Shown here piece after piece: positions 28,401-45,706 of a stretch of DNA of 47,967 nt. Both the position numbers and the translations under genes were made by a program. Below the pieces are notes generated by a model, which saw nothing but the letters and a program-made list of their open reading frames with translations, had not been told where the DNA came from and searched no databases. Numbering within the stretch: position 1 is the first letter of the stretch; each line of letters starts with the position of its first letter. The DNA is from Rubrivivax sp. (GTDB taxonomy: Bacteria; Pseudomonadota; Gammaproteobacteria; Burkholderiales; Burkholderiaceae_C), in assembly GCA_027490215.1 (NCBI GenBank), contig JAIXYO010000023.1, positions 1 to 47,967 on the forward strand, read 5' to 3'.

Positions 28401-31400
28401 CTGCGCCAGGCTTTCGGTGTCGATCAGGTTCAGCGCCAGCGAGCCCGCAATGCCGACCTTGCCGGAACCAGCACCAGCGGTCGCGCTGGCGAGGTACTGG
28501 TCGGTGCGCGTCGGCGCGGGGTTCGCGCTGCTGCCCAAGTCTGACTTCAGCGCCGACAGCGTGACAGATCCCGCGTTCACCTCGATGCCGGTGGTGCCTG
28601 AGCCATCGCCCAGCAGCGCCTGGTTGCTGGACTTCACCAGGTTGATCGACACCGCCGCACCGATGCCCACCGCCGCATCGCCGACGGTCGCGCCATTGGT
28701 CGTGACCTGGCCATCGGTGTTGTTGGCCGTGCTGAGCGTCAGGCCCTTGCCCGCGCTGATGCTGAGCGCATCCGGCAGCACCGCCTGCGTCTTGTGGGTC
28801 GCAATGTTGACCCCTACCGCAGCCGCGACGGCGACCTTGCCTTCGCTGGTCGATGCCGAGGGCTTGCTGTCATCGGACACATCGCCGCTGGTGGCAGCCT
28901 TCTGGTCGCTGTCACCGACGTCGGCAGCCTCCTGATTGTCGGTGCCCAGCTTCAGCAGACCGGTGAGCTTGTCGTCGACGCTGTCGTCTTCTTTCTTTTC
29001 GCCAGTGCTGCTGTCCGTCGCACCGGCGTCATCGCTGGTCTTGCCGCCAGCCGCGCTCGCGGTAGCCTCGACCGTGCCCAGCGAGGCGCCCGACGCCGAC
29101 AGCATGACCTTGCCCGCGCCATCGATGTCGCGGCGGCTGGTGGCCAGCACGGTGTCGTTGACGACCGCGACCGCGACCGCAGCACCCACCGCCGCGGTGC
29201 CGCCGGTTGCGCTGCCGCTTGCCGTGGTCGTTTCGGAAGCCGTCTGCCGCGCGGTCAACGTGATGTCGCCACTCGATCCGTTGACCACTTGCGTGGTGAT
29301 CGCTGCACCAGTGCCGAAATCGGCCGTCGTGCTGTTGTTGACCACCGCCACCGCTGCGCTGGGCGTGATGGCAATGCCGCCCGCAGAACCCGCCGTGGCC
29401 GCAGTGTTGACCTCATGGTCGCCGGTGGCGTCGAGCGCGATGCTGCCTGCACCGCTCACGCTGGCACCGTTGGCGATTTCAGCCAGGCTGCGATTGGCCA
29501 CCACGTTGACCGCGACCGACGCGCCAATGCCGACCTTGCCGCCCGCCGTCGGGCTGGTCGGCAGCACAGCCACGTCGCTGATCGAGGCTTCGTGGGCCTG
29601 GAGCGACAGCGGCGCCGTACCGTTGGCATTGAAGGCCACCGCGACGCCTGGCTGCAGCAGTGCCTGGGCCTGCAGATCGACCGCATTGACGCCGAGAGCG
29701 CCGGCCACGCCAACGCTCTTCGCACCGGCACCAGAGGCCACGGTGGTGATGAACTGGTTCTTCAGCGCAGAGGCACCATTCGGTGCCATGTCGGCCTGCA
29801 CCTGCAGGCTGCGCACAGCCTGGCTCTGGCCGAGGTTCTGCCCAACCAAGGCCTGGTTCGAGCCCTTGCCGAGGTTGATGCCCACGGCCACGCCCACACC
29901 GACATTCCCGCCGGTGGCGCTGGCATTCGCATCGACCGTGGCGACATTCGTCGAGAGCGATTGGACGGTCACATCGCCAGCGGCGTCGAGTGCGCCCGGC
30001 GCCACGGTTCCACTGTTGGCACCCAGCTGCGCACGGGTCGAGCCGACCCAGTCGCTCACCGCAACGGCGCCAGCGACCTTGACGCCACCTTCCGAGGTCT
30101 TGGCCTGATCACCATAGTCGGCCAGCGCCTGAGCGGCACGGCCGCCCCCCGCGGCGTCTTCCTGCGCGCCCTTGGCGGTGGATTTCGCCGTCACCGCCGC
30201 GTTGTTCACCGAACTGGCCGACAGGTTCAATGCGCCGCCACTGCTCACCTGCGCCCCACGGTCGACAACGGCTTCGGTGGTCGTGCGCAGCTTCGACACC
30301 GCCACTGTCGCGCCGGCGGCGACGCTGCCAGCCGCCGACGCATTCGCGGTGGCGGTGGTGTCGACCTGGTTGATCGCCGTCATCGACAGTGACCCGGCGG
30401 TCTGGATGCTGGAGACGGTCGCCGGCGTGTCGCCGGTGGCAGTGCCCAGACGCACACCTGAGGTGCTCGCCACGTCGGTGACGGCCACCATGGCGTCGCC
30501 ATTGAGGTTGGCCAACGCAGACCCTGGGGTGGCGACGGCGCTCGTGATGGACTGCGCGCCGATCTGCACATTGCCGCTGGCCGGTCCCGCGGTGACGGTG
30601 GTCGAGATGGCCGCACCGTTGTGCACATCGACGTTGGCGCTCGAACTCGAGCGCAGCACGGCAACCGATGTGGGCACGGTGCTGTAGGTCGAGGTGTGAA
30701 CCTCGGAGCTTGCATTGATGGCAATGCTGCCGTTCTCGGACACCACGCGCCCGCCATTGACATCGACCTTTGCCGACGCGAGCGCCTGACGCGTGCCCAG
30801 CGTGGTGAGCAGCGTCGAGTCACTGAGAGCGGAACCGGCTGTGACCGTGATGTCGCGTCCGGCGATGTCGGCGCCAGTCAGGTTCACCTGCACCGCGCCG
30901 CCGGAGGTCGAGGTCGCACTGGCGTCCACCGTGTTGGCACCCAGCGCGCCGGCCACATCAACCGTGCTGCCTGCCGCAATCAGGATCTTGCCGTCGCGCT
31001 CAACGATCCCGCCGCCGCGCACCAGCCCATTGGCGTTGACCACGTCGGTGAAGTCAGGTGCGGTGCCATTGAAGCTCGCGCCGGTAGAGATCAGGCCACT
31101 GGAGCCGACGTTGACTGCACCGGCGCGCAAATCGGTGCCGTCGATCAGATTGATTTGGCCGTAGATCGAGATCACGCCATCGGGGTTGATCGGTGCGGTG
31201 CCGTTGGCGAGCTGGGCGGCCGCGCTGCTGTTCGGGTTGCCGCCGCTGAAGAAGCCACTGATGAAATTGGGCGTTGGCGTCGAGACAAACAGGCTGCCGG
31301 TGTTGATGACGCCATTGGCGCCCACGATGAAGCCCTGCGAGCTGGCGAAATAGACCCGGCCGCCAATGCCGCCGTTCTTGATCGAATTGACAACGCCGTC

Positions 31401-31757: not shown

Positions 31758-31853
31758 CGACACACCCCATCAGGACAAGACAAATTTTGTTTCTTACGCT
31801 GGGGGAATGTAGGCTCAGTTCAACCGATCGACGGGGAATCTACTGGCCTGCAT

Positions 31854-31977: not shown

Positions 31978-32805
31978 GTGAAGAAGCCTCCGCGCGCTGC
32001 ACCCCACCTGACCGGTCACCTCAAGGTCAGCACCGACCTGGGCGCGTTCCTCGGCGACAAGCGGGTGCGTCTGCTTGAAGCCATCGAAGCGCATGGATCG
32101 ATCTCGCAAGCGGCCAAGCATGTGCCGCTGTCGTACAAGGCCGCCTGGGACGCGGTGGATGCCATGAACAACCTGGCCGACAGGCCGCTCGTCGAGCGCA
32201 GCACCGGCGGGCATGCAGGCGGCGGAACCCGACTGACCGAGCATGGTCGACGGGTGATTGCGCTGTACCGCGCGGTGGAAGCCGAACACCAGACTGCGCT
32301 CGATCGGCTGGCCCAGACCTTCGCATCCGAACCGGTGGGCGATGTCCAGTCCTTTCAGCGATTGCTGCGCCGCATGGCGGTGCGATCGAGCGCACGCAAC
32401 CAGTTCGTCGGCACCGTCAGCGGCCTGCGCGAGGGCCCGATCGACGTGGAGGTGCGCCTGCAGATCGACGAGCACCTGGACCTCGCAGCGGTGGTGACTC
32501 GCGAGTCGGCCGAGCGACTGGGCCTGGCGATCGGCACCGAAGCGATCGCGCTGGTCAAGGCCTCATCCCTGCTGTTGCTCGTCGGCGAATCGCTGCGCAT
32601 CAGCGCACGCAACCAGCTGTGGGGCCAGGTGCAACGCATCGTCGACGGGCCGGTGAACGCCGAAGTCACACTGGACTTGGGCCACGGCCGCACGGCGGTG
32701 GCGGTGGTCACGCGCGACTCGGTCACCTCACTCGGGCTGGCCGTGGGCGTGCGAGCCTGCGCCGCTTTCAAGGCGTCCAGCGTGATCCTGGCCGTGATCG
32801 ACTGA
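31978..32805 (+). CDS. modE: Molybdate-responsive transcriptional regulator ModE
   Basis: The 275-residue protein has the full ModE layout. An N-terminal winged helix-turn-helix (RVRLLEAIEAHGSISQAAK, then SYKAAWDAVDAMNNL) binds DNA. Two C-terminal Mop domains bind molybdate or tungstate; each starts with a SARNQ motif (SSARNQFVGTV and ISARNQLWGQV) and ends in LVKAS or AFKASSV. With molybdate bound, ModE represses uptake genes. A ModE operator lies just upstream, indicating autoregulation. GTG 31978 is chosen; TTG 31963 would add five residues and lies closer to the operator. No ribosome-binding site is obvious for either. Confidence 0.94.
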   Translation: MKKPPRAAPHLTGHLKVSTDLGAFLGDKRVRLLEAIEAHGSISQAAKHVPLSYKAAWDAVDAMNNLADRPLVERSTGGHAGGGTRLTEHGRRVIALYRAVEAEHQTALDRLAQTFASEPVGDVQSFQRLLRRMAVRSSARNQFVGTVSGLREGPIDVEVRLQIDEHLDLAAVVTRESAERLGLAIGTEAIALVKASSLLLLVGESLRISARNQLWGQVQRIVDGPVNAEVTLDLGHGRTAVAVVTRDSVTSLGLAVGVRACAAFKASSVILAVID

Positions 32806-32824
32806 ACCACCAGGGAGTCATGAC

Positions 32825-33589
32825 TTGAGGGCACCGAGCATCCGAGTTCTGCCGGCGTGGATCGCTGCTGCCAGCGCCGTGCTCTCAATGGATGCGAACG
32901 CCGACGAGGTCACGGTGGCCGTCGCTGCCAACTTCGCCGGCCCGCTGGCGAAGATCGGCGAAGGGTTCACTGCCGCCACCGGCCATACCCTGAGGGTGTC
33001 GTCGGGTTCCACCGGCAAGTTCTACTCGCAGATCATCTCCGGCGCGCCGTTCGAGGTGCTGATCGCGGCAGACGACGAGACCCCTCGCAAGCTGATGGCC
33101 GAGGGCTATGGCGTGACTGACAGCAGCTTCACTTATGCGATCGGCAAGCTGGTGCTGTGGAGTGCACAGCCCGGCTGTGTGGACGACCAGGGCGCGGTGC
33201 TCACCATTGGCAACTACGCGCACCTGGCGATCGCGAACCCGAAGCTGGCGCCCTACGGAAGGGCTGGCCTCGAGGTGCTGAAGGCACGTGGCCTGAGTGA
33301 GACGGTGGCGCCGAAACTGGTGACCGCCGAAAGCATCGCACAGGCTTATCAGTTCGCAGCCACCGGCAACGCTGAACTCGGCTTTGTCGCGCTGTCGCAG
33401 GTGGCGGTGCCCGGCAAGCCCGCAACGGGCTCCTACTGGCTGGTGCCTCCCACGCTGTACGGCGAGATACGCCAGAACGCGGTGCTGCTCAAGACAGGCG
33501 AGAAGAACCAAGCCGCGGCGGCACTGCTGGCCTACTTGAAGAGCCCGGCGGCGAAGGCGGTGATCCAGTCGTACGGCTACGGACCATGA
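32825..33589 (+). CDS. modA: Molybdate ABC transporter, periplasmic binding protein
   Basis: The 254-residue protein has a signal peptide with cleavage expected at ANA-DEV. The mature start EVTVAVAANFAGPLAKI is typical of ModA. SSGSTGKFYSQI and the GAPFEVLIAADDETP segment form the oxyanion-binding site, and YGRAGLEVL is a second family motif. It captures molybdate or tungstate for ModBC. The start is TTG 32825, with GGGAG seven bases upstream; the ATG six bases before is out of frame and followed at once by a stop. It lies 19 bases after modE. Confidence 0.95.
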   Translation: MRAPSIRVLPAWIAAASAVLSMDANADEVTVAVAANFAGPLAKIGEGFTAATGHTLRVSSGSTGKFYSQIISGAPFEVLIAADDETPRKLMAEGYGVTDSSFTYAIGKLVLWSAQPGCVDDQGAVLTIGNYAHLAIANPKLAPYGRAGLEVLKARGLSETVAPKLVTAESIAQAYQFAATGNAELGFVALSQVAVPGKPATGSYWLVPPTLYGEIRQNAVLLKTGEKNQAAAALLAYLKSPAAKAVIQSYGYGP

Positions 33590-33620
33590 ACCGCGTCATG
33601 TCAGGTTGGGTGCAACTGCC

Positions 33621-34307
33621 GTGAGCGCCGAGACCTGGGCCGCGATCCGCCTCACCGCCGAGCTGGCGGGCCTGAGCACACTGTTGCTGCTGCTGCTCGG
33701 CACACCACTCGCGTGGTGGCTGGCGCGCACCCGATCGGCGTGGAAGCCGCTGTGGGCGTCGCTGGTGGCGATGCCGCTGGTGCTGCCGCCGACCGTGCTG
33801 GGCTTCTACCTGCTGCTGCTGATGGGGCCTCACGGGCCGGTCGGGCAGTTCACCCAGTGGCTAGGCATCGGACGCCTGCCATTCACCTTCGGCGGGCTGG
33901 TGGTGGCCTCGGTGCTGTACTCGATGCCCTTCGTCGTGCAGCCGCTGCAGCAGGCCTTCGAGGCCATCCCTGAGCGACTGCTGGAAGCTGCGGCCACGCT
34001 GCGTGCGTCGCCTTGGGATCGCTTCATCAGCGTGGCGCTGCCGCTGGCGCGGCCGGGCTTCGTCACGGCCAGCGTGCTCGGTTTCGCGCACACGGTGGGC
34101 GAGTTCGGCGTGGTGCTGATGATCGGCGGCAACATCCCGGGCGAGACGCGCGTGCTCTCCGTGGCGCTGTACGACCATGTCGAGGCGGCCGAATTCGCCG
34201 AAGCGCACCGGCTGGCAGCCGGCATGGTGGTGTTTGCGCTGGTGGTGCTGGTGACGCTGTACGTTGTCAACCGACCTGCGCGCGACGAGGCACAGCCTGC
34301 CCGATGA
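33621..34307 (+). CDS. modB: Molybdate ABC transporter, permease
   Basis: The product of about 228 residues has five or six hydrophobic helices, beginning with LSTLLLLLLGTPLAWWLA. It carries the permease EAA loop EAAATLRASPWDRFISVALP, which contacts ModC. FAHTVGEFGVVLMIGGNIPG is strongly conserved in ModB. GTG 33621 is chosen; TTG 33606 would add five residues. Its stop overlaps the modC start (ATGA at 34304-34307), so the two are translationally coupled. Confidence 0.94.
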   Translation: MSAETWAAIRLTAELAGLSTLLLLLLGTPLAWWLARTRSAWKPLWASLVAMPLVLPPTVLGFYLLLLMGPHGPVGQFTQWLGIGRLPFTFGGLVVASVLYSMPFVVQPLQQAFEAIPERLLEAAATLRASPWDRFISVALPLARPGFVTASVLGFAHTVGEFGVVLMIGGNIPGETRVLSVALYDHVEAAEFAEAHRLAAGMVVFALVVLVTLYVVNRPARDEAQPAR

Positions 34308-35392
34308 TCGATGTGCGCTTGTACCTGCAACGGCGGGACTTCCAGCTCGAGGTCGCGCTCGCGCTGCCGTCGCGGGGCATCACCGCGCTGTTCGGCCCCT
34401 CAGGCTGTGGCAAGACGACCGTTCTGCGAGCCCTGGCCGGGCTCGATCGTGCGGCCGGCCGTGTCGCGTTGGACGACCAGGTGTGGCAGGACGATGCCAC
34501 CGGCTGCTTCGTGCCCACGCACCGCCGGCCGCTCGGCTATGTGATCCAGGACGCTGCGTTGTTCCCGCACCTCGATGTGCGCGGCAACCTGAACTACGGA
34601 CGAAAGCGCGCCACGGGTGAACGTGACCGCATCGCACTTGATGCGGTGATCGAACTGCTGGGGATCGGGCACCTGCAAGCGCGGCGCCCGACCACGCTGT
34701 CGGGCGGGGAACGGCAGCGCGTGGCGATCGCCCGCGCGCTGGCAACCGGCGCGCGGCTGCTGCTGATGGACGAGCCGCTGGCCGCGCTGGACGCGGCGCG
34801 CAAGGCCGAGATCCTGCCGTACCTCGAGCGCCTGCACCGCGAACTGGCGCTGCCGATCGTCTATGTCACCCATGCGATGGACGAGGTCGCCCGACTGGCG
34901 GACCACCTGGTTCTGATGCGCGATGGGCGCGTCGACGCGGCCGGTGCGCTGACCGACCTGATGGCGCGCGCCGACCTGCCACTGGCCCGGCTCGACGACG
35001 CGGGCGTGGTGATCACCGCCGAAGTGGCCGAGCACGACTTGCTGCACGGCATGACGCGCATTGCGTTGAACGGCAGCTCGATGTGGGTCGGCCCGTCGCC
35101 TGGACTGCCGGGCCAACGGGTGCGCGCGCGCATCCTCGCCCGCGATGTCAGCGTGACGCGGCAGCGACCCACCGAGACCAGCATCCTCAACGTGCTGCCG
35201 GTGGTGATCGACAGCGTGCAGCGCGAGCCCAGCACCGCGCTGCTCAGCCTGCGGGTTGGCCACGGTGACCAGCAAGCCCACTGGACGCTCTTGGCGCGCA
35301 TCACCAGCAGGAGCCTGGACGCGCTGAATCTGCAACCCGGCGATGCGCTGCACGCGCAGATCAAGGGCGTGGCATTGATGCGGGACGGCTGA
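34304..35392 (+). CDS. modC: Molybdate ABC transporter, ATP-binding protein
   Basis: The 362-residue protein has Walker A GPSGCGKTT, the signature LSGGERQRVAIARAL, Walker B LLLMDEPLAALD and the H-loop YVTHAMDEV. A C-terminal Mop/TOBE domain follows (residues about 290-360, SILNVLPVVIDSV onward), as expected for ModC, where bound molybdate can inhibit transport. It powers uptake through ModB. The ATG overlaps the modB stop. The gene is convergent with the SulP gene, with only 35 bases between the stops and no clear terminator. Confidence 0.95.
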   Translation: MIDVRLYLQRRDFQLEVALALPSRGITALFGPSGCGKTTVLRALAGLDRAAGRVALDDQVWQDDATGCFVPTHRRPLGYVIQDAALFPHLDVRGNLNYGRKRATGERDRIALDAVIELLGIGHLQARRPTTLSGGERQRVAIARALATGARLLLMDEPLAALDAARKAEILPYLERLHRELALPIVYVTHAMDEVARLADHLVLMRDGRVDAAGALTDLMARADLPLARLDDAGVVITAEVAEHDLLHGMTRIALNGSSMWVGPSPGLPGQRVRARILARDVSVTRQRPTETSILNVLPVVIDSVQREPSTALLSLRVGHGDQQAHWTLLARITSRSLDALNLQPGDALHAQIKGVALMRDG

Positions 35393-35427: not shown

Positions 35428-37248
35428 TCACGGCAGAAACGCGCGAGCAGTGTCGTCTGCCGAGTCCCCTGCACGGTCCTCCCAGTCCACCCAGGCGACG
35501 GACTCAGATTCAAGATAGCGGCTGACGGCCTCGCCCATGGTGGCAAAGAAGCGCTGCTCGCCAAGCCTCGAGAAGAGTCCGAAGCGCTTGAGTTTGTCCT
35601 TGACCGGGTCTTTCATCTCGGCAAAGCAGAGGTCGATGCCAGCCTGGCGCAGGGTCGTGTCGAGTTCACTCAGCACATCGGACGAAGTCACGTCGACGCT
35701 GGTGATCGGCTCGGCACCAACGACCAGCCAGCGCACCGGCATTGGAGAGTTGGACACCGCGTCGAGCACGCTTTCACGGAAAAACTCCGCGTTGGCGAAG
35801 AACAGCGGCGCATCCCAGCGGAACAGCACCAGCCCCGGCACGATGCGGGCGGCTGGATAGCGGGTGACGTCGTGGTAGCCCTTGACGCCGTCAACCCGCC
35901 CCAGCACCGCGCAATGCGGTCGCCAGCCATCCCACAGAAACTCGATCACCGCGATCACGATGGCGAGCCCGATGCCCGGGATCGCCCCGAGCACAACAAC
36001 CCCAATCGAGCAGCCGATGGACAGCCAGAACTCCCATCGCTGGATGCGGTAGATGCGCCGGAGGTCGTTGATCTCGAACAGCGCCAGAGCCGAAGCAATC
36101 ACCACCGCCGCCAGCGCGGCCTTGGGCAGACTTCCAAGGAGGTTTGGCGCCCACATCAGCAGACCCGCCACGGCCATGGCGCCAACCACGCCTGCCAGTT
36201 GGGTCTGGGCACCCGCCGCCTCGGCCACCGGCGTTCGTGATGCGCTTGCGCTGATGGGGATGCCGTGAAACAAGCCAGCAGCCAGATTCGCCGCGCCCAG
36301 TGCCACCATCTCCTGATCCGGATTGGAGGCACCACCCGTGCGTGCTGCATAGGCGCGTGACAGCATGCTCGTGTCGGCAAACGACACCAGAGCCACAGCC
36401 AGACCACCGAGCAACACCGGCACGATGTCGCCAGATCGGATCAGTGGCAGCGAGATGGCCGGCAGCCCTTGCGGCAAGGACCCCAACACCGGGACCCCAG
36501 CGCTGGTGGACAGATTGAGCAACACGACGATCAGGGTGGCTCCGACAACAGCCAGCAAGACGCCCGGCAGGCGATTCCAGCGCTTCAACAGGAGAATCGC
36601 CGCCAGCGCCCCGAGGCCAAGCGCAGACGCAACCCAGTTCGAGCGATGGGCCCACAGTCCATCGATCAAGGCGCGAATCTCGCCTGGGAAGCCCTCACCT
36701 GCGGCCGAGAATCCGAACAGTGCCGGCAATTGGCTGACCAGCACCGTCAGGGCAATGCCGTTCATGTAGCCGTAGCGGATGGGCTTGGACAGCAATTCCG
36801 TGATGAAACCCAGCCGCGCCGTGCCGGCCAGTACGCACAGCATGCCGGACACGAGCGCCATCATCCCGGCCAGTGCCACGGCACGTTGCGGATCCCCGCC
36901 TGACAGCGGCAGCACCACGCCCAGAATCAACGCGACCAGGGAAGAGTCGGGGCCGAGCACGAGCACGCGGCTCGGGCCGAACAGGGCGTAGGCCAGCAGC
37001 CCGAAGATGGTCGCGTACAAGCCGCTGATCGCCGGAACACCGGCGGCGACTGCATAGGCGATGCCGACGGGCAGCAAAACCGCTGTCAAGGCCAGGCCGG
37101 CACCGAGGTCGTGCCGCAGCCACGCCATCTCGTAGTGCTGCAACGTTTGCAAGCCCGGAAACCATCGCCTCCAGCCGATGACGGACTGCGACGACCGCGG
37201 CCTGATCACCCGACCCTTCGTCGAGTTTTCGGTAGGTGGCGATTCCAC
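35428..37248 (-). CDS. SulP-family anion permease with STAS domain
   Basis: The protein of about 606 residues has 10-14 hydrophobic segments, beginning with GAGLALTAVLLPVGIAYAVA, and the SulP signature GLYATIFGLLAYALFGPSR. A C-terminal STAS domain (residues about 440-570) follows, including SVDVTSSDVLSELDTTLRQ. Family members carry sulphate, bicarbonate, chloride or oxalate; the sequence does not tell which. GGGAG is eight bases before GTG 37248; GTG 37254 has too short a spacing. It follows a monohaem cytochrome gene closely on the same strand and so may belong to the redox operon, where sulphate or another oxyanion could be the link. Confidence 0.9.
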   Translation of the reverse strand: MESPPTENSTKGRVIRPRSSQSVIGWRRWFPGLQTLQHYEMAWLRHDLGAGLALTAVLLPVGIAYAVAAGVPAISGLYATIFGLLAYALFGPSRVLVLGPDSSLVALILGVVLPLSGGDPQRAVALAGMMALVSGMLCVLAGTARLGFITELLSKPIRYGYMNGIALTVLVSQLPALFGFSAAGEGFPGEIRALIDGLWAHRSNWVASALGLGALAAILLLKRWNRLPGVLLAVVGATLIVVLLNLSTSAGVPVLGSLPQGLPAISLPLIRSGDIVPVLLGGLAVALVSFADTSMLSRAYAARTGGASNPDQEMVALGAANLAAGLFHGIPISASASRTPVAEAAGAQTQLAGVVGAMAVAGLLMWAPNLLGSLPKAALAAVVIASALALFEINDLRRIYRIQRWEFWLSIGCSIGVVVLGAIPGIGLAIVIAVIEFLWDGWRPHCAVLGRVDGVKGYHDVTRYPAARIVPGLVLFRWDAPLFFANAEFFRESVLDAVSNSPMPVRWLVVGAEPITSVDVTSSDVLSELDTTLRQAGIDLCFAEMKDPVKDKLKRFGLFSRLGEQRFFATMGEAVSRYLESESVAWVDWEDRAGDSADDTARAFLP

Positions 37249-37266
37249 GCTCACAGCTCCCTGCAG

Positions 37267-37620
37267 CTAGCGATGAGGCGCACGGAGAGCCGGCCTGGAT
37301 GCAGGCGAATGGCCAGCCACGCTCGGCGAAGAAACCGGATCTGCTGTCTGCTCAAAGCGATAGATGCTCTCGTTGAGATAGCGAGACACCTCCAGGATGT
37401 CGCCATCGCTCCACGCCAACGAAGCTGCATCCTGCCAACGTCGAACCTGGAGCTTGAGTGTCGTCCAGTCATTGACCGAACGTTTGTCGCGCCAATGCAT
37501 CTCTGTCGTGTGGCAGGAGATGCAATGCGTCGTGTACAGCAACTCGCCGCGAGATTGCGCCATCGCCGACGGGGCGAAGATGGCGACGGCGATCAGCAGC
37601 CATCCAGCACGATCATTCAT
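37267..37620 (-). CDS. Small exported monohaem cytochrome c
   Basis: The 117-residue protein has a signal peptide (NDRAGWLLIAVAIFAPSAMA) and one haem-attachment site, CISCH, within LLYTTHCISCHTTEMHWRDK. The later WSDGDILEVSRYLN resembles the C-terminal helix of class I cytochromes c. It should be periplasmic. ATG 37620 follows a purine-rich GGAGGCGAGGG. It lies between the octahaem and SulP genes, with a 133-base gap after the former. It may accept electrons from the octahaem cytochrome or supply a terminal reductase. Confidence 0.85.
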   Translation of the reverse strand: MNDRAGWLLIAVAIFAPSAMAQSRGELLYTTHCISCHTTEMHWRDKRSVNDWTTLKLQVRRWQDAASLAWSDGDILEVSRYLNESIYRFEQTADPVSSPSVAGHSPASRPALRAPHR

Positions 37621-37753
37621 TTGACCCTCGCCTCCATTCGATGTGTCCTCCTGAAATGGCCGAGCCACCACCTTCGCTTGTTTCACCACGCCTGTCGGTG
37701 CGCTGTCGAACGCCGGTACCTCAAGGTTTCAGGCGCGCCTGTCGCAACGCGCT

Positions 37754-38500
37754 TCAGTCGCGCTCTCCACGTTTTCCGTCTCGACCGCCTTCACCAGATC
37801 CCTCGCCCTCGCCACGGGCATTGCGGTGACAACGCACGCAGTTGTCCAGTTTCTCGGTACCGACCTCCTCGCGGTGTTCGGCCTGCATGTTGGCGGGCGT
37901 GTGCTCGTGGCAACCGTAGCAGGTGTACTGCTTGAAGTTGTTGCCAGCGTGGCAGGTGATGCACGACGCGTTGTGGTCCTTGTCCAGCGGGAAGAACTTG
38001 CCATGGTCGAAGGTGGCCGGCTTCCAGGCTTCGGTCTGGTGGCACGTGCCGCAGCCGACGGTCAGAGCCTTGTGCAGTTCGTTCGTCGGCGCGGCATGGC
38101 AGGTGTCGCAGCGGTCCCGTGTCGCCACGCGCAGCATGGCGTGCGAAAACGGCTTGCGGCTTCGCTGCGTCAGCTTCGGGCCGGCGTGGTCGCTGTGGCA
38201 GGCCATGCAGTTCTGATCGTTCAGTTCCTGGTGAAACGACACCTTCACCGGCTTGGCATGGACGATGGCCGCGCCCTTGGTCGTGCGCAGGCCGATGTCG
38301 GCCCGCGCATGGCAGGCCACGCAGCGCTCTGCCGCGGCCCCGCGCAGGGGCGCGTGGCAGGCAAAACAATCGGTGGTCAGTTCGGCGTGGCCCTTCTCGA
38401 GCGCGCCAGGAGCCAGCATCAGATGCGGGTAGACAAATGCCAGCGTCACCAGCACCGCCAGGTTGGCGCTGATCACGATCCAGAGCCAGCGGCCTTTCAC
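37754..38500 (-). CDS. Membrane-anchored octahaem cytochrome c
   Basis: The 248-residue protein has one N-terminal membrane helix (LWIVISANLAVLVTLAFVYP) followed by eight CxxCH haem sites, with first cysteines at residues 45, 60, 98, 131, 150, 180, 194 and 221. Additional histidines (SFHQEL, SHAML, FDHGKFF, KDHNAS) can serve as distal ligands, typical of the cytochrome c3/c7 and NrfB-like small multihaem proteins. The C-terminus is Gly/Glu/Arg-rich and probably disordered. The start is a GTG that overlaps the stop of the upstream membrane cytochrome gene (GTGA at 38500-38497), so they are coupled. I do not recognise a named orthologue. It is expected in the periplasm as an electron wire. Confidence 0.93.
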   Translation of the reverse strand: MKGRWLWIVISANLAVLVTLAFVYPHLMLAPGALEKGHAELTTDCFACHAPLRGAAAERCVACHARADIGLRTTKGAAIVHAKPVKVSFHQELNDQNCMACHSDHAGPKLTQRSRKPFSHAMLRVATRDRCDTCHAAPTNELHKALTVGCGTCHQTEAWKPATFDHGKFFPLDKDHNASCITCHAGNNFKQYTCYGCHEHTPANMQAEHREEVGTEKLDNCVRCHRNARGEGEGSGEGGRDGKRGERD

Positions 38501-39084
38501 TTCCAGCTCCAGAACAGGAACTCGGCCACGATGTGCGCCAGCGCCAGCACCGCAAAGGCCAGCGTGATGGGAAAGTGCACCGATCGCCACTGCTTGACGG
38601 CGTCGAAGGTCAGGCTGTCCCAGTAGGTGCGCTCGGACTGCTGCTCGGGCGTCAGGCCCTGCGCTCGCATGCGCTGCCGCGCTTCTTCGAGGCGGCGCCG
38701 CGAACGGCCGAGCAGGAACTTGCCCGTCAAGCCACTGGCAACGTTGATGATCATCGCCACGGTGGCCAACCAGGCCAGGATCGAGTTGAAGTGGATACCG
38801 GCGTGCACCAGCACGAGCAGCGAGCCCGCCCAGGCCATGGTTTCGTGCAGCCGCAGCAGCTTGACGGGCTGGCCAGACCGGATCAGCTTGCGCTTGCGCA
38901 GCGAGTAGGCCAAAGACCCGAGGATCATCAGCGTGCCGGGGATGCCCAGCCAGCGGCCGATCCACACCGCGTTCAGCAGGTGCAATGCGGCGTCGCACAG
39001 CAGCGCGGCCGCTGCCAGCGCCAGCAGCGAGAGGTAGAACGGCAGCACCTCGCGGCTGAACAAGCGGGCTTGCAGGGAACTCAT
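38497..39084 (-). CDS. Five-helix bis-haem b membrane protein, ferric-reductase-like
   Basis: The 195-residue protein has about five hydrophobic helices (residues near 14-36, 46-62, 82-98, 104-122 and 171-192). Histidines at 80 and 94, and at 170 and 184, form two H-x13-H pairs on two helices. That is the spacing used by ferric reductases and NADPH oxidases to hold two stacked haems b across the membrane. H98 is an extra candidate. It lacks a flavin domain; the adjacent upstream gene supplies one. Start ATG 39084 is ten bases after the reductase stop, and its own stop overlaps the octahaem start. Probable role: carry electrons from the cytosolic reductase to the periplasmic octahaem protein. 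Confidence 0.82.
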   Translation of the reverse strand: MSSLQARLFSREVLPFYLSLLALAAAALLCDAALHLLNAVWIGRWLGIPGTLMILGSLAYSLRKRKLIRSGQPVKLLRLHETMAWAGSLLVLVHAGIHFNSILAWLATVAMIINVASGLTGKFLLGRSRRRLEEARQRMRAQGLTPEQQSERTYWDSLTFDAVKQWRSVHFPITLAFAVLALAHIVAEFLFWSWK

Positions 39085-39094
39085 GGCGCGTTCC

Positions 39095-40393
39095 TCATGC
39101 ATCCAGCACCAGGGCCGACTGTGGTTTGCCAACGCACAGCAGGCACTGGCCCCTCGGGATCTCGTGATCAGGTTTGTCTGCGTAGGTGACGGTGCCTGAC
39201 AGCAAGCGTGTCTGGCAGGTGCCACAGCTCCCCGACCTGCAGCCCGAATCCACCGCCAGACCGTGGCGTTCGGCGAAGTCGAGCAGGTTGGCATCTTGAC
39301 CGTCCCAGACCAGCGTGCGGCCCGCGCGGCCGAAGCGCACCTCGACGGACGCCGAACTCGCCACCGCCGGCTCGTTGCTCACCGACTCTGTCGGCCGCAC
39401 CGAGGCCGGGCCGAAGGCCTCGAAGTGAATGTCGTCGGCCTGCACGCCCCATTCGCGCAAGGCGGGCACCAGACTCTGCATCATCGGCGGAGGCCCGCAG
39501 ACGTAGAACTGGTGACGGCCATGGGGCAAGGTGCGACGCAACAAGGCCAGGTCGATGTGGCCGACGTGCTGGTAGTCATGGCCCGGCACGTCATCGGCTG
39601 TGGGGCTGCTGTAGACCACGTTCAGCTTGAAGGCAGCGTGAGCGGCTGCAAGCTCCTCCAGCACGCGCTTGAAGGCATGGTCGCTGCTGCTGCGCACGCC
39701 GTAGAAAAGATGCACCGGGCGTCCGGGCTGCTTTTCAGTGCACCAGCGCAGCATGCTCATCATCGGCGTGATGCCGATGCCGCCGGCGATGAATACGGCC
39801 GGCACGCTGGCGTCGGGATCGATGAAGAAGTACCCCGACGGCGCCTTGACCTGAAGCACATCACCCTCGTGCACATGGTCATGGAAAAAGCTGGACGACA
39901 GGCCCGGCGGCAACTCCGGACTGTCAGCCGGTGCGAGCGCGCGCTTGATGGTGATTCGGTAGCCCGCTGTATCCGGCCGGTCGGACAGCGAATAGCACCG
40001 CGTGATGGTGCGTACACTGCCTGGCGCGCCAGTAACGCCCTCAGGCAGCTTCAGCGAGAACGTGAGGTACTGACCCGGCTGGAATGGCGTGAGTGGCACG
40101 CCATCCACCGCTTGAAGGTGGAATGAACACTGCGTCTGCGCTGCATCCTCGAACCCTCGGCGCACGACCCGGAAGTCACGCCAACCCGACCAGGCACCTT
40201 TGACCGCGGTCACGATGTCTTCGTGCTCGGCTGACTGTGGCGCACTCGCCGGCAGGGTACGTCGCCACATGGCGAACGCCACGCCAGCAACCGCCTGCAG
40301 CAGCAAGGCCACCGAGATGTAGGCAAGCAGTTGACTGGCGGTCACAGACGCAATGTCCCGTACGGACTGAGCGAGCGTGTTGATCTCCGTCAA
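39095..40393 (-). CDS. Membrane-anchored FAD/NAD(P)H reductase with C-terminal 2Fe-2S ferredoxin domain
   Basis: The 432-residue protein has one N-terminal membrane helix (residues about 21-42). An FNR-type FAD domain follows, with the flavin motif RCYSLSD at 132-138. The NAD(P)H-binding domain has GGIGITPMMSM at about 204-214 and YVCGPPPMM. A plant-type ferredoxin at the end has C385-x4-C390-x2-C393 and a further cysteine at 417 or 420. The layout resembles Hcr-like and oxygenase reductases with the ferredoxin last. It should take electrons from NADH or NADPH in the cytosol. The start is a TTG without a clear ribosome-binding site. It is the first gene of the operon that continues with the haem b protein and octahaem cytochrome. 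Confidence 0.9.
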   Translation of the reverse strand: MTEINTLAQSVRDIASVTASQLLAYISVALLLQAVAGVAFAMWRRTLPASAPQSAEHEDIVTAVKGAWSGWRDFRVVRRGFEDAAQTQCSFHLQAVDGVPLTPFQPGQYLTFSLKLPEGVTGAPGSVRTITRCYSLSDRPDTAGYRITIKRALAPADSPELPPGLSSSFFHDHVHEGDVLQVKAPSGYFFIDPDASVPAVFIAGGIGITPMMSMLRWCTEKQPGRPVHLFYGVRSSSDHAFKRVLEELAAAHAAFKLNVVYSSPTADDVPGHDYQHVGHIDLALLRRTLPHGRHQFYVCGPPPMMQSLVPALREWGVQADDIHFEAFGPASVRPTESVSNEPAVASSASVEVRFGRAGRTLVWDGQDANLLDFAERHGLAVDSGCRSGSCGTCQTRLLSGTVTYADKPDHEIPRGQCLLCVGKPQSALVLDA

Positions 40394-40533: not shown

Positions 40534-40575
40534 GACAAAGAAAAAGGATCTGGAGGCTCCCGCCTCCAGATCCTT
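40534..40575 (-). terminator. Rho-independent terminator after tRNA-Asn
   Basis: AAGGATCTGGAGGC (40544-40557) and GCCTCCAGATCCTT (40562-40575) form a perfect 14-bp stem with loop TCCC. Read on the minus strand the stem is followed by TTTCTTTG. It ends 19 bases after the tRNA. Confidence 0.92.
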
Positions 40576-40593: not shown

Positions 40594-40669
40594 TGGCTCC
40601 TCGACCTGGGCTCGAACCAGGGACCTACGGATTAACAGTCCGGCGCTCTACCGACTGAGCTATCGAGGA
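40594..40669 (-). tRNA. tRNA-Asn (anticodon GTT)
   Basis: The 76-base minus-strand gene has acceptor arms TCCTCGA and TCGAGGA with discriminator G and an encoded CCA. The D arm AGCTCAGTCGGTAGAGC, the anticodon loop CTGTTAA (GTT) and the T-loop GGTTCGAGCC are intact. Confidence 0.97.
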
Positions 40670-40758: not shown

Positions 40759-41865
40759 TCAAGTGTTCGAGTCGGCCTCAGCCCCACCGCGGCGACGTTG
40801 CACCGCATGTGACAGCAAGCGCAGCAGCGGCTCGGTGTCGGCCCAGCCCAGACAGGCATCGGTGATCGATACGCCGCGTGTCAGTGGCTGGCCAGCGACC
40901 AGATCCTGCCGGCCCGCTTCCAGGTGGCTTTCGATCATCACGCCGGTGATGCGCTTTTCACCGGAGGCCATCTGCGCGGCCACGTCCTGCGCCACCTCGG
41001 TCTGCCTTTGGTGGCGCTTCTCGGAATTGGCGTGAGAGCAATCGATCATCACCTGCTCGCGCAGGCCCGCTGCGCGCAGCACTTCGCAGGCGGCTGCCAC
41101 ATCGTCGGCGTGGTAGTTGGGCTTCTTGCCGCCGCGCAGGATCACATGGCAGTCGGCATTGCCGCGGGTTTCGAAGATCGCGGCCTGGCCCATCTTCGTC
41201 ATGCCCATGAAGGCATGCGGCGCGCGGGCCGCGAGCACCGCATCGGCAGCCACGCGCACACCACCATCGGTGCCATTCTTGAAGCCGACCGGGCATGACA
41301 GGCCCGAGGCCAGTTGTCGGTGGCTCTGGCTTTCGGTGGTGCGCGCGCCGATCGCGCCCCACGACACCAAATCGGAGATGTACTGCGGGCTCAGCAGATC
41401 CAGGTATTCGGTCCCTGCCGGCAGACCGATCTCGGCAATGTCGAGCAGCAATGCCCGCGCTCGGCGCAGGCCTTCATTGATGTGGGAGCTGCCGTCCAGC
41501 CGCGGGTCGTTGATGTAGCCCTTCCAGCCGACCGTGGTGCGGGGCTTCTCGAAGTACACCCGCATGACCACCAGCAGGTCATCTCGCAGTTCATCGGCCA
41601 GCGCTTTCAGATGGCGCGCGTACTCGATGGCTTCGCCGTGGTCGTGGATCGAACACGGCCCGACGACAACGATCAGCCGGTCGTCAGCGCCTTTGAGCAC
41701 CGCCGCCACCGCGTCACGCGCCTCGCGCACCAGAACCTGGGCCGCCGCAGGCATGGGCAGTTCGTCGAGGAGCAGCGCCGGTGAGATCAGCGGCCGCACC
41801 GCGCCGATGCGCAGGTCGTCGACACGCGTGGTGTCTTCGGTGGCCGGCGGCGCTGCGGGATTCAC
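40759..41865 (-). CDS. aroG: 3-deoxy-7-phosphoheptulonate synthase (DAHP synthase, class I)
   Basis: The 368-residue enzyme joins phosphoenolpyruvate and erythrose 4-phosphate in the first step of aromatic amino acid synthesis. Class I motifs are present: VVVGPCSIHDH, MRVYFEKPRTTVGWKGYIND, CPVGFKNGTDGG, and DCSHANSEK with the metal-binding histidine. The N-terminal segment (residues 1-45) resembles the feedback-sensing arm of AroG/AroF/AroH; which amino acid inhibits it cannot be read from the sequence, so the symbol is provisional. It lies upstream of tRNA-Asn on the same strand. Confidence 0.93.
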   Translation of the reverse strand: MNPAAPPATEDTTRVDDLRIGAVRPLISPALLLDELPMPAAAQVLVREARDAVAAVLKGADDRLIVVVGPCSIHDHGEAIEYARHLKALADELRDDLLVVMRVYFEKPRTTVGWKGYINDPRLDGSSHINEGLRRARALLLDIAEIGLPAGTEYLDLLSPQYISDLVSWGAIGARTTESQSHRQLASGLSCPVGFKNGTDGGVRVAADAVLAARAPHAFMGMTKMGQAAIFETRGNADCHVILRGGKKPNYHADDVAAACEVLRAAGLREQVMIDCSHANSEKRHQRQTEVAQDVAAQMASGEKRITGVMIESHLEAGRQDLVAGQPLTRGVSITDACLGWADTEPLLRLLSHAVQRRRGGAEADSNT

Positions 41866-42633: not shown

Positions 42634-43551
42634 TCAATGGGTCCGTGCGGCAGTTACCGCGTCGATCAAAGCCCGCCATTTTGCCGCGACCGCCTCCGGC
42701 TGTGCAGCCGCCACCAGGGCACGCACCACCGCCACCGAACCCACGCCGCTGGCCAGGACTTCGGGCAACCGTGCTTCGTCGATACCACCGATCGCGACCA
42801 GTGCGTGGTCGCGCATCAGGTGCGCGTAGGCGGCCAACCGGCCCGGCCCCTGTGGCGCTGACGGCATCACCTTCAGGTTGGTCGGGTAGACCGCGCCCAT
42901 CGCGATGTAGCTCGGACTCAGGCGATCGACGCGCAGCATCTCGGCATAGCCGTGGGTGCTGAGGCCCAGTCGCAGGCCTTCGCTGCGGATCGCGTTCAGG
43001 TCGGCGGTGGCGATGTCTTCCTGGCCCAGGTGCACACCATAGGCGCCCGCGCGGATCGCGGCCTGCCAGTGGTCGTTGATGAAAAGTCGGGCACCGGTAC
43101 CGCGCACCGCTTCGACCGCGATGTCGACCTCGCGCTGCACGGCCACCGCGTCGTCGGATTTGAAGCGCAGTTGCACCGTTGGCACGCCAGCCTGCGCCAT
43201 GCGGCCCACCCAGGCGGCATCAGGCAGCACTGCGTACAGCCCGAGCGACTGCGGACAGGCGGCGAAGGCATCGACACGTGGATGCGGTGCGAGACCGAAA
43301 TCGATCGGCTCGTCGGGCCAGGTACGGGCATCGAAATCGCCGGTACGCCCGGCACGAGCACGCCACGCGAGCGCCACGCATTCGGCATCGGCCTCGATGA
43401 AGCCCAGCAAGCGGGCCGCCTGCTTGGCGGCGCGGTAGGCGTGTTCGGCGTGGTGATACGCCGCGGGCGAGGTGTCGGAAACAGGCAAACCGACAGTCGC
43501 GCTGTGCGCCTCGACGATGGCCTGCGCCATTGCATCCACCGAGGCGCTCAT
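42634..43551 (-). CDS. thiE: Thiamine-phosphate synthase with N-terminal extension
   Basis: The C-terminal 200 residues are ThiE, which couples HMP-PP with thiazole phosphate to give thiamine phosphate. The core reads LGLYAVLPDAAWVGRM, then VQLRFK, INDHWQAAIRAGAYGVHLGQ, YIAMGAVYPTNLK and VAIGGIDEARLPEV. The first 105 residues are not part of the usual 210-residue enzyme; they are Ala-rich, with SPAAYHHAEHAYRAAKQAAR and ALAWRARAGRTGDFDARTW. The total of 305 residues resembles longer betaproteobacterial ThiE proteins. The ATG overlaps the thiG stop (ATGA), giving translational coupling. Confidence 0.9.
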   Translation of the reverse strand: MSASVDAMAQAIVEAHSATVGLPVSDTSPAAYHHAEHAYRAAKQAARLLGFIEADAECVALAWRARAGRTGDFDARTWPDEPIDFGLAPHPRVDAFAACPQSLGLYAVLPDAAWVGRMAQAGVPTVQLRFKSDDAVAVQREVDIAVEAVRGTGARLFINDHWQAAIRAGAYGVHLGQEDIATADLNAIRSEGLRLGLSTHGYAEMLRVDRLSPSYIAMGAVYPTNLKVMPSAPQGPGRLAAYAHLMRDHALVAIGGIDEARLPEVLASGVGSVAVVRALVAAAQPEAVAAKWRALIDAVTAARTH

Positions 43552-44378
43552 TCGTGATGCCAGAACGGTGTACCCAGCACAGGTGTGCTCGGCTGCGCGG
43601 CCTGCTGCTCGCCCATCGCCCCAGCGTGAAACGCGCTGCGGCCGGCCTGCACCGCATCGGCGAACGCGCCGGCCATGCCCACCGGGTCTTGGGCCAGTGC
43701 TACCGCGGTGTTCAGCAGCACGCCGTCGTAGCCCCACTCCATCACCTGACAGGCATGCGAGGGCCGGCCCAGCCCGGCGTCGACGATCATCGGCACCCGC
43801 AGCCGCTCGCGCAGCACCTGCATCGCATACGGGTTGACCGGGCCTCGGCCGGTGCCGATCGGCGCGGCCCAGGGCATCACAGCCTGGCAGCCGACATCGA
43901 CGAGTCGCTGGCACACGACCAGGTCTTCGGTGCAGTACGGCAGCACCTGGAAGCCGTCCTTGATCAGCCATTCGGCGGCTTCGACCAGCTTCAGCGTGTC
44001 GGGCTGGAGCGTGTAGTCGTCGCCGATCAGTTCCAGCTTGAGCCAGGGGGTGGCGAACACCTCGCGCGCCATCTGCGCGGTGGTGATGACCTCCTGGATG
44101 CCGTGGCAGCCGGCGGTGTTCGGCAGCACCGGCACGCCCAATGTCTGCAGCAGTTGCCAGAAGGCATTGCCAGATTCGGCGTTCGACGCCCCCTGCCGGC
44201 GCAGCGACGCCGTCAACATCGCCGGCCGCGCGCGCCGCACTGCATCTTCAAGCACCTGCGGTGATGGGTAGCGCGAGGTGCCGAGCATCAGCCGGCTGGC
44301 GAATGTCTGGCCATAAAGCACCAGCGGGTCGTCCGCCGAGTGGACGGCGGAGGTAGGGATATCGGACATCGTGGTCAT
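43548..44378 (-). CDS. thiG: Thiazole synthase
   Basis: The 276-residue TIM-barrel enzyme forms the thiamine thiazole ring from deoxyxylulose phosphate, ThiS thiocarboxylate and dehydroglycine. Motifs include ASRLMLGTSRYPSPQVL, NTAGC, LKLELIGDDYTLQPD, VMPWAAPIGTGRGPVN and VDAGLGRPSHA. Start ATG 44378 or 44369 is possible; neither has a clear ribosome-binding site. It is 16 bases after thiS and overlaps thiE. Confidence 0.94.
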   Translation of the reverse strand: MTTMSDIPTSAVHSADDPLVLYGQTFASRLMLGTSRYPSPQVLEDAVRRARPAMLTASLRRQGASNAESGNAFWQLLQTLGVPVLPNTAGCHGIQEVITTAQMAREVFATPWLKLELIGDDYTLQPDTLKLVEAAEWLIKDGFQVLPYCTEDLVVCQRLVDVGCQAVMPWAAPIGTGRGPVNPYAMQVLRERLRVPMIVDAGLGRPSHACQVMEWGYDGVLLNTAVALAQDPVGMAGAFADAVQAGRSAFHAGAMGEQQAAQPSTPVLGTPFWHHE

Positions 44379-44394
44379 GAAAAAGGGAGTCGCT

Positions 44395-44592
44395 TCAGCC
44401 GCCGGTGACCGGCGCAATCACATCGATGCGGTCGCCGTCATGCAGCGGCGTTTCGCGGTAGCGCGTATTCGGCACGAAATTCATGTTGATGGCGGCGGCA
44501 AACGGCGGAGCAGGTTGCACGACAGCGATCGCATCCGCCAGTGTGGCACCGGTCGGCAGCTCATGCGACTGATTGTTGATATGGATCTTCAT
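44395..44592 (-). CDS. thiS: Sulphur carrier protein ThiS
   Basis: The 65-residue ubiquitin-like protein starts MKIHINNQSHELPTGATL and ends in the required Gly-Gly (VIAPVTGG), which is activated and turned into a thiocarboxylate that gives sulphur to ThiG. Its ATG overlaps the thiO stop (ATGA), so production is coupled to thiO. Confidence 0.93.
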   Translation of the reverse strand: MKIHINNQSHELPTGATLADAIAVVQPAPPFAAAINMNFVPNTRYRETPLHDGDRIDVIAPVTGG

Positions 44593-45680
44593 GTGACGAC
44601 GCCTGTGCCCGAATCAATGCGCAGCGCGAACTGCTCGGCCAGCGCGCTGTGACCGCTCTCTATGCATTGCATGACCGCATCGAGCATGGCGGGGGCGATC
44701 AGGAAGCCGTGCCGGTACAGGCCGTTGATCTGCAGTCGGCGCGGGCCGAGCCAGCGCAGCGCCGGGAGGTTGTCGCGCAGCGTCGGCCGACATTGCGCGG
44801 CCATCTCGATCACCCGCGCCTCGGCGAAACCCGGGTGCACGCTGTAGGCCGCGCTCAGCAGCTCAAGCGTCGATCGAACGCTGGCGGGCGACAGGTCGTC
44901 GGATTCGATCTCGGTCGCGCCGATGACAAAAACACCGCCCGGCTTCGGCGCGATGTACAGCGGGTAGCGCGGGTGAAGCAGCCGCGTCGGCCGGGCCAGC
45001 GAGACCTCGGGCGCGTGCACCCGGATCACCTCGCCGCGCACGCCGCGCAGCGCCGCCCAGTCGCTGCGCGCACCCAGTCCGCGGCAATCGAACAGCCAGC
45101 CGTCATGGCTGGAAAAGTCGGCGGGTGAACGCGGGCTGTTCCAGTGCAGCGCCACGCCGAGGGTCTGCAAGCGATGCAGCAGCGCCGCCAGCAGCTCGCG
45201 GTTGTCCAGCTGGCCTTCACCGGGCAGGTACAGGCCTTGCGCAAAGCGCTCGCCGATGGCCGGCTCCAGCCGGGCGACCGCACGGGCGTCGAGGGTTTCG
45301 GCCGCCGGCAGCTGGGGCATCGCGCGGGCGGTGTTGGCCAGTTGCTGCTGGAAGCGCGTGGCTTCAGCTCCGTCCTGCCGGTGCCATAGCACCAGCGTGC
45401 CCTGCTGCTGGAAGAACACCGGTGCCCCCAGCGTCGCGATCAGCTCAGGCCAACGTACCAGCGCATGGCAACCCATGCCAACCACACCGAGTTCGGTGAC
45501 CGCCGACTCGGCCAGCGGCGCGAGCATCGCCGCCGCGACATGGGCGGCAGATGCTGGCGCATCACGCGCGCTGGCGTCGTACAGATCGACGGTGCGGCCT
45601 GCTCGCGCCAGCTCGCAGGCGAGCAGCCGACCCATCAAGCCCGCCCCAAGCACCACCGTGCGATCCGTGTGGAGGCTCAT
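44589..45680 (-). CDS. thiO: Glycine oxidase ThiO
   Basis: The 363-residue flavoprotein opens with the dinucleotide-binding motif VVLGAGLMGRLLACELARAG and has DAO-family segments ARPTRLLHPRYPLYIAPKP, VFVIGATEIESDD and the C-terminal GLYRHGFLIAPAM. It oxidises glycine to the imine used by ThiG, the oxygen-dependent route in place of ThiH. No thiH is visible. It is the first gene of the thiO-thiS-thiG-thiE-HAD set and starts 26 bases from the divergent thiD. Confidence 0.92.
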   Translation of the reverse strand: MSLHTDRTVVLGAGLMGRLLACELARAGRTVDLYDASARDAPASAAHVAAAMLAPLAESAVTELGVVGMGCHALVRWPELIATLGAPVFFQQQGTLVLWHRQDGAEATRFQQQLANTARAMPQLPAAETLDARAVARLEPAIGERFAQGLYLPGEGQLDNRELLAALLHRLQTLGVALHWNSPRSPADFSSHDGWLFDCRGLGARSDWAALRGVRGEVIRVHAPEVSLARPTRLLHPRYPLYIAPKPGGVFVIGATEIESDDLSPASVRSTLELLSAAYSVHPGFAEARVIEMAAQCRPTLRDNLPALRWLGPRRLQINGLYRHGFLIAPAMLDAVMQCIESGHSALAEQFALRIDSGTGVVT

Positions 45681-45706
45681 GCAGCCGCCCCCGCATAATT
45701 TTCGTC

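Follow-up and report, generated by a model that had tools for sequence, protein, structure and literature searches.

A putative NAD(P)H-to-octahaem cytochrome electron conduit in Rubrivivax whose relatives adjoin metal-handling genes

The operon considered here lies on the minus strand of a 47,967-nucleotide stretch of DNA from Rubrivivax sp. (GenBank assembly GCA_027490215.1, contig JAIXYO010000023.1, positions 1 to 47,967), which we refer to as the window. It encodes, in this order, an NAD(P)H/FAD/2Fe-2S reductase, a membrane protein with two pairs of histidines and an octahaem cytochrome c, and is followed on the same strand by genes for a monohaem cytochrome c and a SulP-family transporter (Table 1). 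A first-pass annotation, made from the sequence, had read the reductase, membrane, octahaem and monohaem genes as a four-gene operon, and their order, strand and composition are confirmed; one cytochrome has eight CxxCH motifs and the other a single CISCH. The range that it gave for these four genes (35428-40393) takes in the SulP gene too, however, and the tight spacing that it reported applies to the first three genes but not to the fourth. The reductase and membrane genes are separated by 10 bases and the membrane and octahaem genes overlap by 4 (the GTG start of the latter lies over the previous stop), but the octahaem and monohaem genes are at least 64 bases apart, or 133 with ATG 37620 as the monohaem start. 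The SulP gene lies 12 bases past the monohaem gene.

Table 1. Features at the operon and on its flanks (positions in the window)
Feature	Position	Strand	Basis
SulP-family transporter with STAS domain	35428..37254	-	Pfam, NCBIfam
Monohaem c-type cytochrome, signal-peptide-like start, frame open to GTG 37689	37267..37620	-	one CISCH
Octahaem cytochrome c, 248 residues, N-terminal membrane anchor, GTG start	37754..38500	-	Pfam, alignment, model
Membrane protein, 195 residues, two H-x13-H pairs (H80/H94, H170/H184), SGxxG on helix 4	38497..39084	-	alignment, model, homology
NAD(P)H/FAD/2Fe-2S reductase, 416 residues, N-terminal hydrophobic helix (VTASQLLAYISVALLLQAVAGVAF)	39095..40345	-	Pfam, NCBIfam, 1cqx match, start from relatives
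Terminator-like stem, 14 pairs, between tRNA-Asn and reductase	40544..40575	-	consensus match
tRNA-Asn upstream of operon	40594-40669	-	

The reductase frame is open as far as TTG 40393, but GTG 40345 is more likely to be its start because the relatives start there. The stem beyond it, one of seven matches to the terminator-like consensus in the region (vs 3.4 in shuffles), suggests that the operon has its own promoter. To place these genes in context, we draw on a single database scan, which yielded 80 loci; counts over 71 loci exclude L006 and L019, where the membrane gene was not called, and L074-L080, which are distant or degraded. Gene-call counts come from a codon model, and presence at the level of the open reading frame from a separate search. 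The three-gene operon is real: its gene order is kept across dozens of species and is therefore not due to chance. The four-gene set initially proposed is not kept as such, since the monohaem and SulP genes fall outside the conserved unit and are accessory genes found in few relatives. A monohaem gene is called in two of the 71 loci (open reading frames for it were found in L001, L002, L006 and L008), and a SulP gene in seven, one of which (L009) is a weak match on the other strand.

These counts bear on the earlier suggestion that the SulP and nearby molybdate genes hint at oxyanion metabolism, according to which the conduit would supply electrons to reduce a SulP-handled oxyanion, with a link to molybdate. 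Apart from the position of the SulP gene in the window, what favours this reading is the adjoining set of molybdate genes at 31978-35392 on the plus strand (by appearance regulator, binding protein, permease and ATPase), which is convergent with the SulP gene. The scarcity of SulP among the relatives argues against it, as does the fact that the molybdate set is not among the recurrent neighbour families of the loci, a ModC-like frame having been noticed in L006 only. We have therefore abandoned the oxyanion link, which is very improbable.

The NAD(P)H and 2Fe-2S domains with which the reductase had been credited are borne out by Pfam (NAD_binding_1, E 2e-22; C-terminal Fer2, E 2.3e-10), but FAD_binding_6 is weak and stays below its cut-off (16.6 bits vs 21.1). 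FAD_binding_8 gives no Pfam match, and NAD_binding_6 is barely above cut-off (23.4 vs 22.2 bits), NAD_binding_1 being far stronger. The FAD/NAD part is closest to flavohaemoglobin, as judged by the match to 1cqx (E 5.2e-51) and by the NCBIfam flavohaemoglobin model, which scores 242.6 bits (E 6.7e-72) and misses its cut-off of 432. The reductase thus shares with flavohaemoglobin Hmp the FAD/NAD reductase domain, but it has no globin domain (no Pfam match up to E 1) and carries instead a membrane anchor and the C-terminal 2Fe-2S domain, while the haems of the window system sit on separate membrane and periplasmic proteins.

The membrane protein is probably a di-haem b protein, as initially proposed from its two H-x13-H pairs. 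All 27 aligned sequences (the window's included) keep H80, H94, H170 and H184, and the structural model (mean predicted local distance difference test score, pLDDT, 80.3) has five long helices, with H80/H94 on helix 3 and H170/H184 on helix 5. The positive-inside rule, applied to the Arg/Lys of the loops, would place H80/H170 on the cytoplasmic side and H94/H184 on the periplasmic side, and the two haems would span the membrane. The comparison with a ferric reductase/NOX machine split over two genes is apt as a likeness, with the reductase and the bis-haem b protein on two genes and the histidine pairs on helices 3 and 5, but membership of that family is not borne out: the membrane protein has no Pfam match to PF01794 (FRD) up to E 1, and the reductase is a separate, flavohaemoglobin-like polypeptide. 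No sequence relative of the membrane protein was found in the PDB up to E 10. Close to the module, L037, L044, L045, L049, L073 and L103 encode a further ferric-reductase-like protein, this one fused (PF01794 was confirmed for L044), so that two transmembrane reductases adjoin there.

In the octahaem family, eight CxxCH are found in 19 of 20 aligned sequences (the window's included), L065 having six, and among 60 gene calls from L001-L073 there are eight sites in 42, ten in 10, twelve in one and fewer in seven, mostly cut by contig ends. The window protein exceeds the Pfam thresholds of both Cytochrome_C7 (39.1 bits, cut-off 24.8) and Cytochrom_CIII (39 bits, cut-off 22.9), and has two weak multihaem matches among PDB sequences. 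Its model is poor (pLDDT 45.6) and confident for the anchor helix only. The six-site cytochrome belongs to a Roseomonas rosulenta locus (L065:4077-6681) in which the reductase frame is in pieces, which points to a decaying copy or a sequencing error, and L076 has a broken octahaem frame.

Clusters of this general kind have been described in iron oxidisers (He et al., 2017; PMC5566968). In the passages of that paper available, they are mostly porin-less and consist of a multihaem cytochrome, an inner membrane protein of five helices bearing a pair of HX13H motifs and, in many cases, a further redox protein, their function being left open. The window module, whose five-helix membrane protein bears HX13H on its third and fifth helices and is accompanied by a multihaem cytochrome and a further redox protein, probably belongs to these unassigned clusters. 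It differs from that description in that the redox protein is here identified as a flavohaemoglobin-like reductase, and in that metal exporters, SHP (an oxygen-binding cytochrome, DUF1924), an operator and plasmid relatives are here linked to the set. In the same source, PCC3/PCC4 proteins are characterised by an SGxxG motif in helix 4 and by WX3HX13H in each of the two histidine-bearing helices; in the 27 sequences aligned here, S117, G118, G121 and W166-x3-H170 are invariant, but no W lies four residues before H80. In the open literature, we found no name for the trio or for its metal, SHP and operator links, and no characterised pathway of this composition, in agreement with the first-pass annotation, which had recognised no named system. 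PMC5566968 alone describes such clusters, in general terms, and the passages available of PMC6357080, PMC3368242 and PMC3701524 hold nothing on the gene set.

The module is rare, being found in seven of 370 genomes of the class and, in a search of 60 genomes of relatives, in 11, of which one (G058) is weak, the window's own genome being counted in both cases. Named hosts belong to the beta-, alpha- and gamma-proteobacteria, apart from one anammox genome. Among L001-L073, the membrane gene is called in 71 of 73 loci, and a reductase-like open reading frame lies beside the pair in 68 of 73. In two Bacteroidetes loci (L078 and L080), the membrane gene is instead followed by a flavoprotein with 4Fe-4S and pyridine-nucleotide-disulphide reductase domains (checked for L080), and a flavoprotein of this type is divergent from the membrane gene in G058 (L108). 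The membrane protein and multihaem cytochrome pair is thus the fixed core, with the reductase replaced by another flavoprotein in Bacteroidetes. A conserved single-helix protein of about 54 residues is found near the module start in L016, L017, L025, L027, L041, L105 (the L088 genome) and L106; it is absent from the window, and the L106 copy is without a Pfam match.

A recurrent feature of the module loci is the presence of metal exporters. Their flanks, 531 kb for the 71 modules, were compared with a background taken from 11 module genomes, and the expected values consequently include some linked genes. For CDF genes (background of 33 genes per 43 Mb, 34 being listed over the cut-off), 18 were found in the flanks vs 0.41 expected; P-type cation ATPases were found in 15 loci (17 called pieces) vs 0.31 expected, VIT three times and GDT1 twice. 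At least one exporter is present in 28 of the 71 loci, and in 21 of the 43 that have 2.5 kb on both sides. Upon dereplication at 85% identity, which left 33 loci, there are six CDF genes vs 0.2 expected, 10 P-type ATPase pieces in nine loci vs 0.16 and three VIT genes vs 0.06, with some exporter in 13 of the 33. Pfam upholds the labels of all 18 CDF, three VIT, two GDT1 and 15 SHP genes, and of 14 of 15 ATPases, the piece in L035 matching only the HAD domain and being unconfirmed. In the window's own genus, the module of G011 (L106) has a CDF gene immediately upstream, and beyond it are, in divergent orientation, genes for SHP, a dihaem cytochrome, cytochrome b561 and two regulator/kinase pairs; this locus is the window's nearest full parallel. 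The CDF family includes members that export iron (FieF, AitP and FeoE; passages of PMC7762939). The kinases of the module loci were also inspected for RExxE, which we take to be an Fe(II)-sensor motif, and it was present in three of 20, with no pattern.

The set is also found among metal genes in a second, distant form. A tblastn search of PLSDB with the octahaem protein uncovered plasmid trios annotated as 2Fe-2S protein, 'iron reductase' or hypothetical protein, and 'cytochrome c3 family protein', and 52 plasmids carry distant relatives of the membrane protein, for most of which the annotation reads hypothetical or 'iron reductase'. The window's own membrane protein had no match among plasmids and phages. 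In 11 regions hand-picked from the 52 records (the PLSDB annotation table being incomplete), all three genes are annotated in 10, L119 showing two, and nine have copper or heavy-metal genes as neighbours, namely those for multicopper oxidase, copper resistance protein B, four-helix copper-binding protein, heavy-metal regulator, RND efflux or metal P-type ATPase. No copper or heavy-metal neighbour was seen in the Methylocystis plasmid region, and the Alteromonas plasmid trio adjoins a NiFe hydrogenase. Alteromonas plasmids with the trio have been described as bearing metal resistance (passages of PMC4781885 and PMC8478169). Homology with the window's membrane protein is borne out by comparison of membrane-protein profiles in hhalign (99.2%, E 1e-19), which aligns the four histidines; the second profile (A3) includes three sequences from L078, L080 and L108, and the plasmid, Bacteroidetes and window membrane proteins are, on this profile evidence, homologous. 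The plasmid cytochrome also matches the octahaem profile (E 3.7e-28), which carries less weight, since CxxCH repeats are easily aligned. The trio has the same gene order as in the window, but its membrane protein is 20% identical, its reductase has 411-688 residues and its cytochrome seven haem sites.

A further recurrent neighbour is SHP, whose genes are found in 15 of the 71 loci. In the 370-genome sample, SHP is present in six of seven module genomes vs 58 of 363 others (Fisher p 1.3e-4, phylogeny not corrected for), and among 15 module genomes besides the window's, which overlap that sample, it is present in 12. The window genome has a single DUF1924 match, on another contig (C44) and not in the module cluster. 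At that locus (L098, C44:86000-100500), an apparent metal-type ABC transporter is found some 3 kb from the genes for SHP, dihaem cytochrome and cytochrome b561. In Allochromatium vinosum, Alvin_0019, a FieF gene, is next to the SHP cluster (0020-0026), and all are induced on pyrite (passages of PMC11267869), an observation made on the SHP cluster. The SHP operon, composed of cytochrome b561, dihaem cytochrome c, SHP and a two-component system, is a neighbour of the module, and apparently co-regulated with it, in part of the relatives. It differs from the module in that it has been proposed to be fed by quinol and in that its cytochrome b matches PF01292, which the window membrane protein does not in Pfam up to E 1.

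Evidence of co-regulation comes from the repeat TTAAG-N6-TTAAG, which was chosen before the loci were inspected and is presumably bound by BqsR, a regulator responsive to Fe(II). Similar repeats are recognised by regulators of the PmrA type. There are 19 exact occurrences in 0.9 Mb (both strands, some overlapping) vs 0, 1 and 0 in three simulations, and 83 with up to one mismatch vs 16, 18 and 12. At 20-160 bp upstream, the box is found with up to one mismatch at 14 of 60 reductase, eight of 16 SHP and 13 of 611 other starts, and exactly at seven, four and four, respectively; these counts are without dereplication (L044, L045 and L073 are near-identical), and some of the 13 other starts are divergent partners. 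Both reductase and SHP genes have it in six loci (L021, L030, L031, L032, L046 and L059). A His-rich exported protein of about 157 residues (L030:7806-8282, L037:3571-4041 and L046:3526-4011), without a Pfam match for the L037 copy, may belong to the box regulon, the box lying upstream in two of the three loci.

On this regulatory evidence, SHP is the best protein partner for the conduit, though not always present, which brings up the possibility that the conduit is the electron supply of SHP, that is, a periplasmic counterpart of flavohaemoglobin for NO removal or substrate oxygenation. The kinship of the reductase to flavohaemoglobin, the shared box and the co-occurrence of SHP with the module would all fit, as would the reported binding of O2 and NO by SHP and its NO dioxygenase activity (passages of PMC2909971). 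However, SHP is near the module in just 15 of 71 loci and annotated in none of the 11 plasmid regions, and a quinol route via cytochrome b and dihaem cytochromes has already been proposed for it in the same source. We regard a dedicated supply as unlikely, although it deserves to be kept in mind.

The reading that we favour, on balance probable though with considerable doubt, is that the operon uses NAD(P)H to reduce, across the membrane, a partner in the periplasm in response to metal stress, the acceptor being a candidate only. We assign it to metal stress because the set, in two lineages, adjoins different metal-handling genes. Taken most simply, the parts and the order in which they come would form a path from NAD(P)H through FAD/2Fe-2S and two b haems to octahaem cytochrome c, and we infer its direction, the haem positions, the formation of a complex and the terminal acceptor as follows. 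NAD(P)H would reduce the FAD of the anchored reductase, whose 2Fe-2S domain would hand single electrons to the b haems held by H80/H170 (cytoplasmic) and H94/H184 (periplasmic), which in turn would reduce the anchored octahaem cytochrome in the periplasm, the quinone pool being bypassed. Outward flow would be favoured by the potential of NAD(P)H and the membrane potential. The octahaem cytochrome would then reduce a periplasmic partner, most likely a redox-active metal ion such as Fe(III) or Cu(II), or else a metal-handling or O2/NO-binding haem protein (SHP), and in the window the monohaem cytochrome may act as a local shuttle. Of the acceptors initially considered (metal, oxyanion or partner enzyme), metal has gained as a theme from the synteny of the relatives and oxyanion has found no support. 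It is possible, but doubtful, that the module is more broadly a horizontally spread metal-stress machine, in which a fixed di-haem b and multihaem c pair would be set on interchangeable cytoplasmic NAD(P)H flavoproteins and, sharing a regulon with SHP, would reduce metal ions in the periplasm or haem proteins that handle metals there.

Several observations weigh against the favoured reading. Exporters are missing from the DNA examined in 43 of the 71 loci, and in the 11 module genomes, several of whose contigs are short, a CDF gene lies within 8 kb of the module in three (G011, G271 and G293) and a P-type ATPase or VIT gene in none. In the window, neither a metal exporter nor an SHP gene nor a TTAAG box adjoins the module, the box being absent as well from the rest of the window, from the SHP locus of its genome and from L106, so that its metal link rests on homology; nor do adjoining exporters prove that a metal is the acceptor. 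SHP is lacking in three of the 15 module genomes (G252, which is complete, and G002 and G004, which are 85-86% complete), the box is missing at 46 of 60 reductase starts, and the plasmid cytochromes have seven haem sites (10 of 10), not eight. Fold searches with the membrane protein (best Foldseek E 0.59, VIA-align rows being mostly generic helical bundles) neither favour nor rule out a ferric-reductase fold. Finally, L051, L057, L069 and L100 have membrane and octahaem genes and no reductase gene by tblastn, which indicates that NAD(P)H input is not obligatory and that quinol could feed the pair. The membrane protein could then be part of a respiratory branch, with the reductase as an optional side input, and the proposal that PCC3/PCC4 proteins with the same histidine pairs are quinone-active (passages of PMC5566968) points the same way. 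This is nevertheless rather improbable, considering how regularly a reductase-like frame adjoins the pair, that another pyridine-nucleotide flavoprotein takes its place in Bacteroidetes, which would fit NAD(P)H as the usual donor, and that most porin-less clusters were judged unlikely to serve extracellular transfer (same source).

Reverse flow, in which a periplasmic donor such as Fe(II) or reduced sulfur would reduce NAD(P)+ through the conduit, is brought to mind by hosts that are sulfur or iron oxidisers by name (Thiobacillus, Thiocapsa and Sideroxyarcus). It would be uphill for most such donors and would run against the membrane potential, no pump was recognised in the cluster, and other hosts (Aquabacterium and Roseomonas) are presumably heterotrophs; we consider it the least probable possibility.

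If true, NAD(P)H-driven reduction of a periplasmic partner would have implications on several levels. A direct route from NAD(P)H to the periplasm that avoids the quinones would enable bacteria to adjust the redox state of metals in the periplasm by spending cytoplasmic reductant, and it would offer a testable role both for SHP and for a membrane protein carried by 52 plasmids. Placing SHP, whose function is unsettled, in a metal-stress regulon would provide its physiological setting, and the TTAAG-N6-TTAAG box is a cheap entry point.

Elsewhere in the window, a frame of 6115 codons (13416-31763, minus strand) lies beside one of 587 codons (11656-13419, minus strand), by appearance a giant exported protein and its two-partner secretion transporter. 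Past an aroG-like gene (40759-41865), thiamine biosynthesis genes by appearance (ThiE, ThiG, ThiS, ThiO and ThiD types) occupy 42634-46594.

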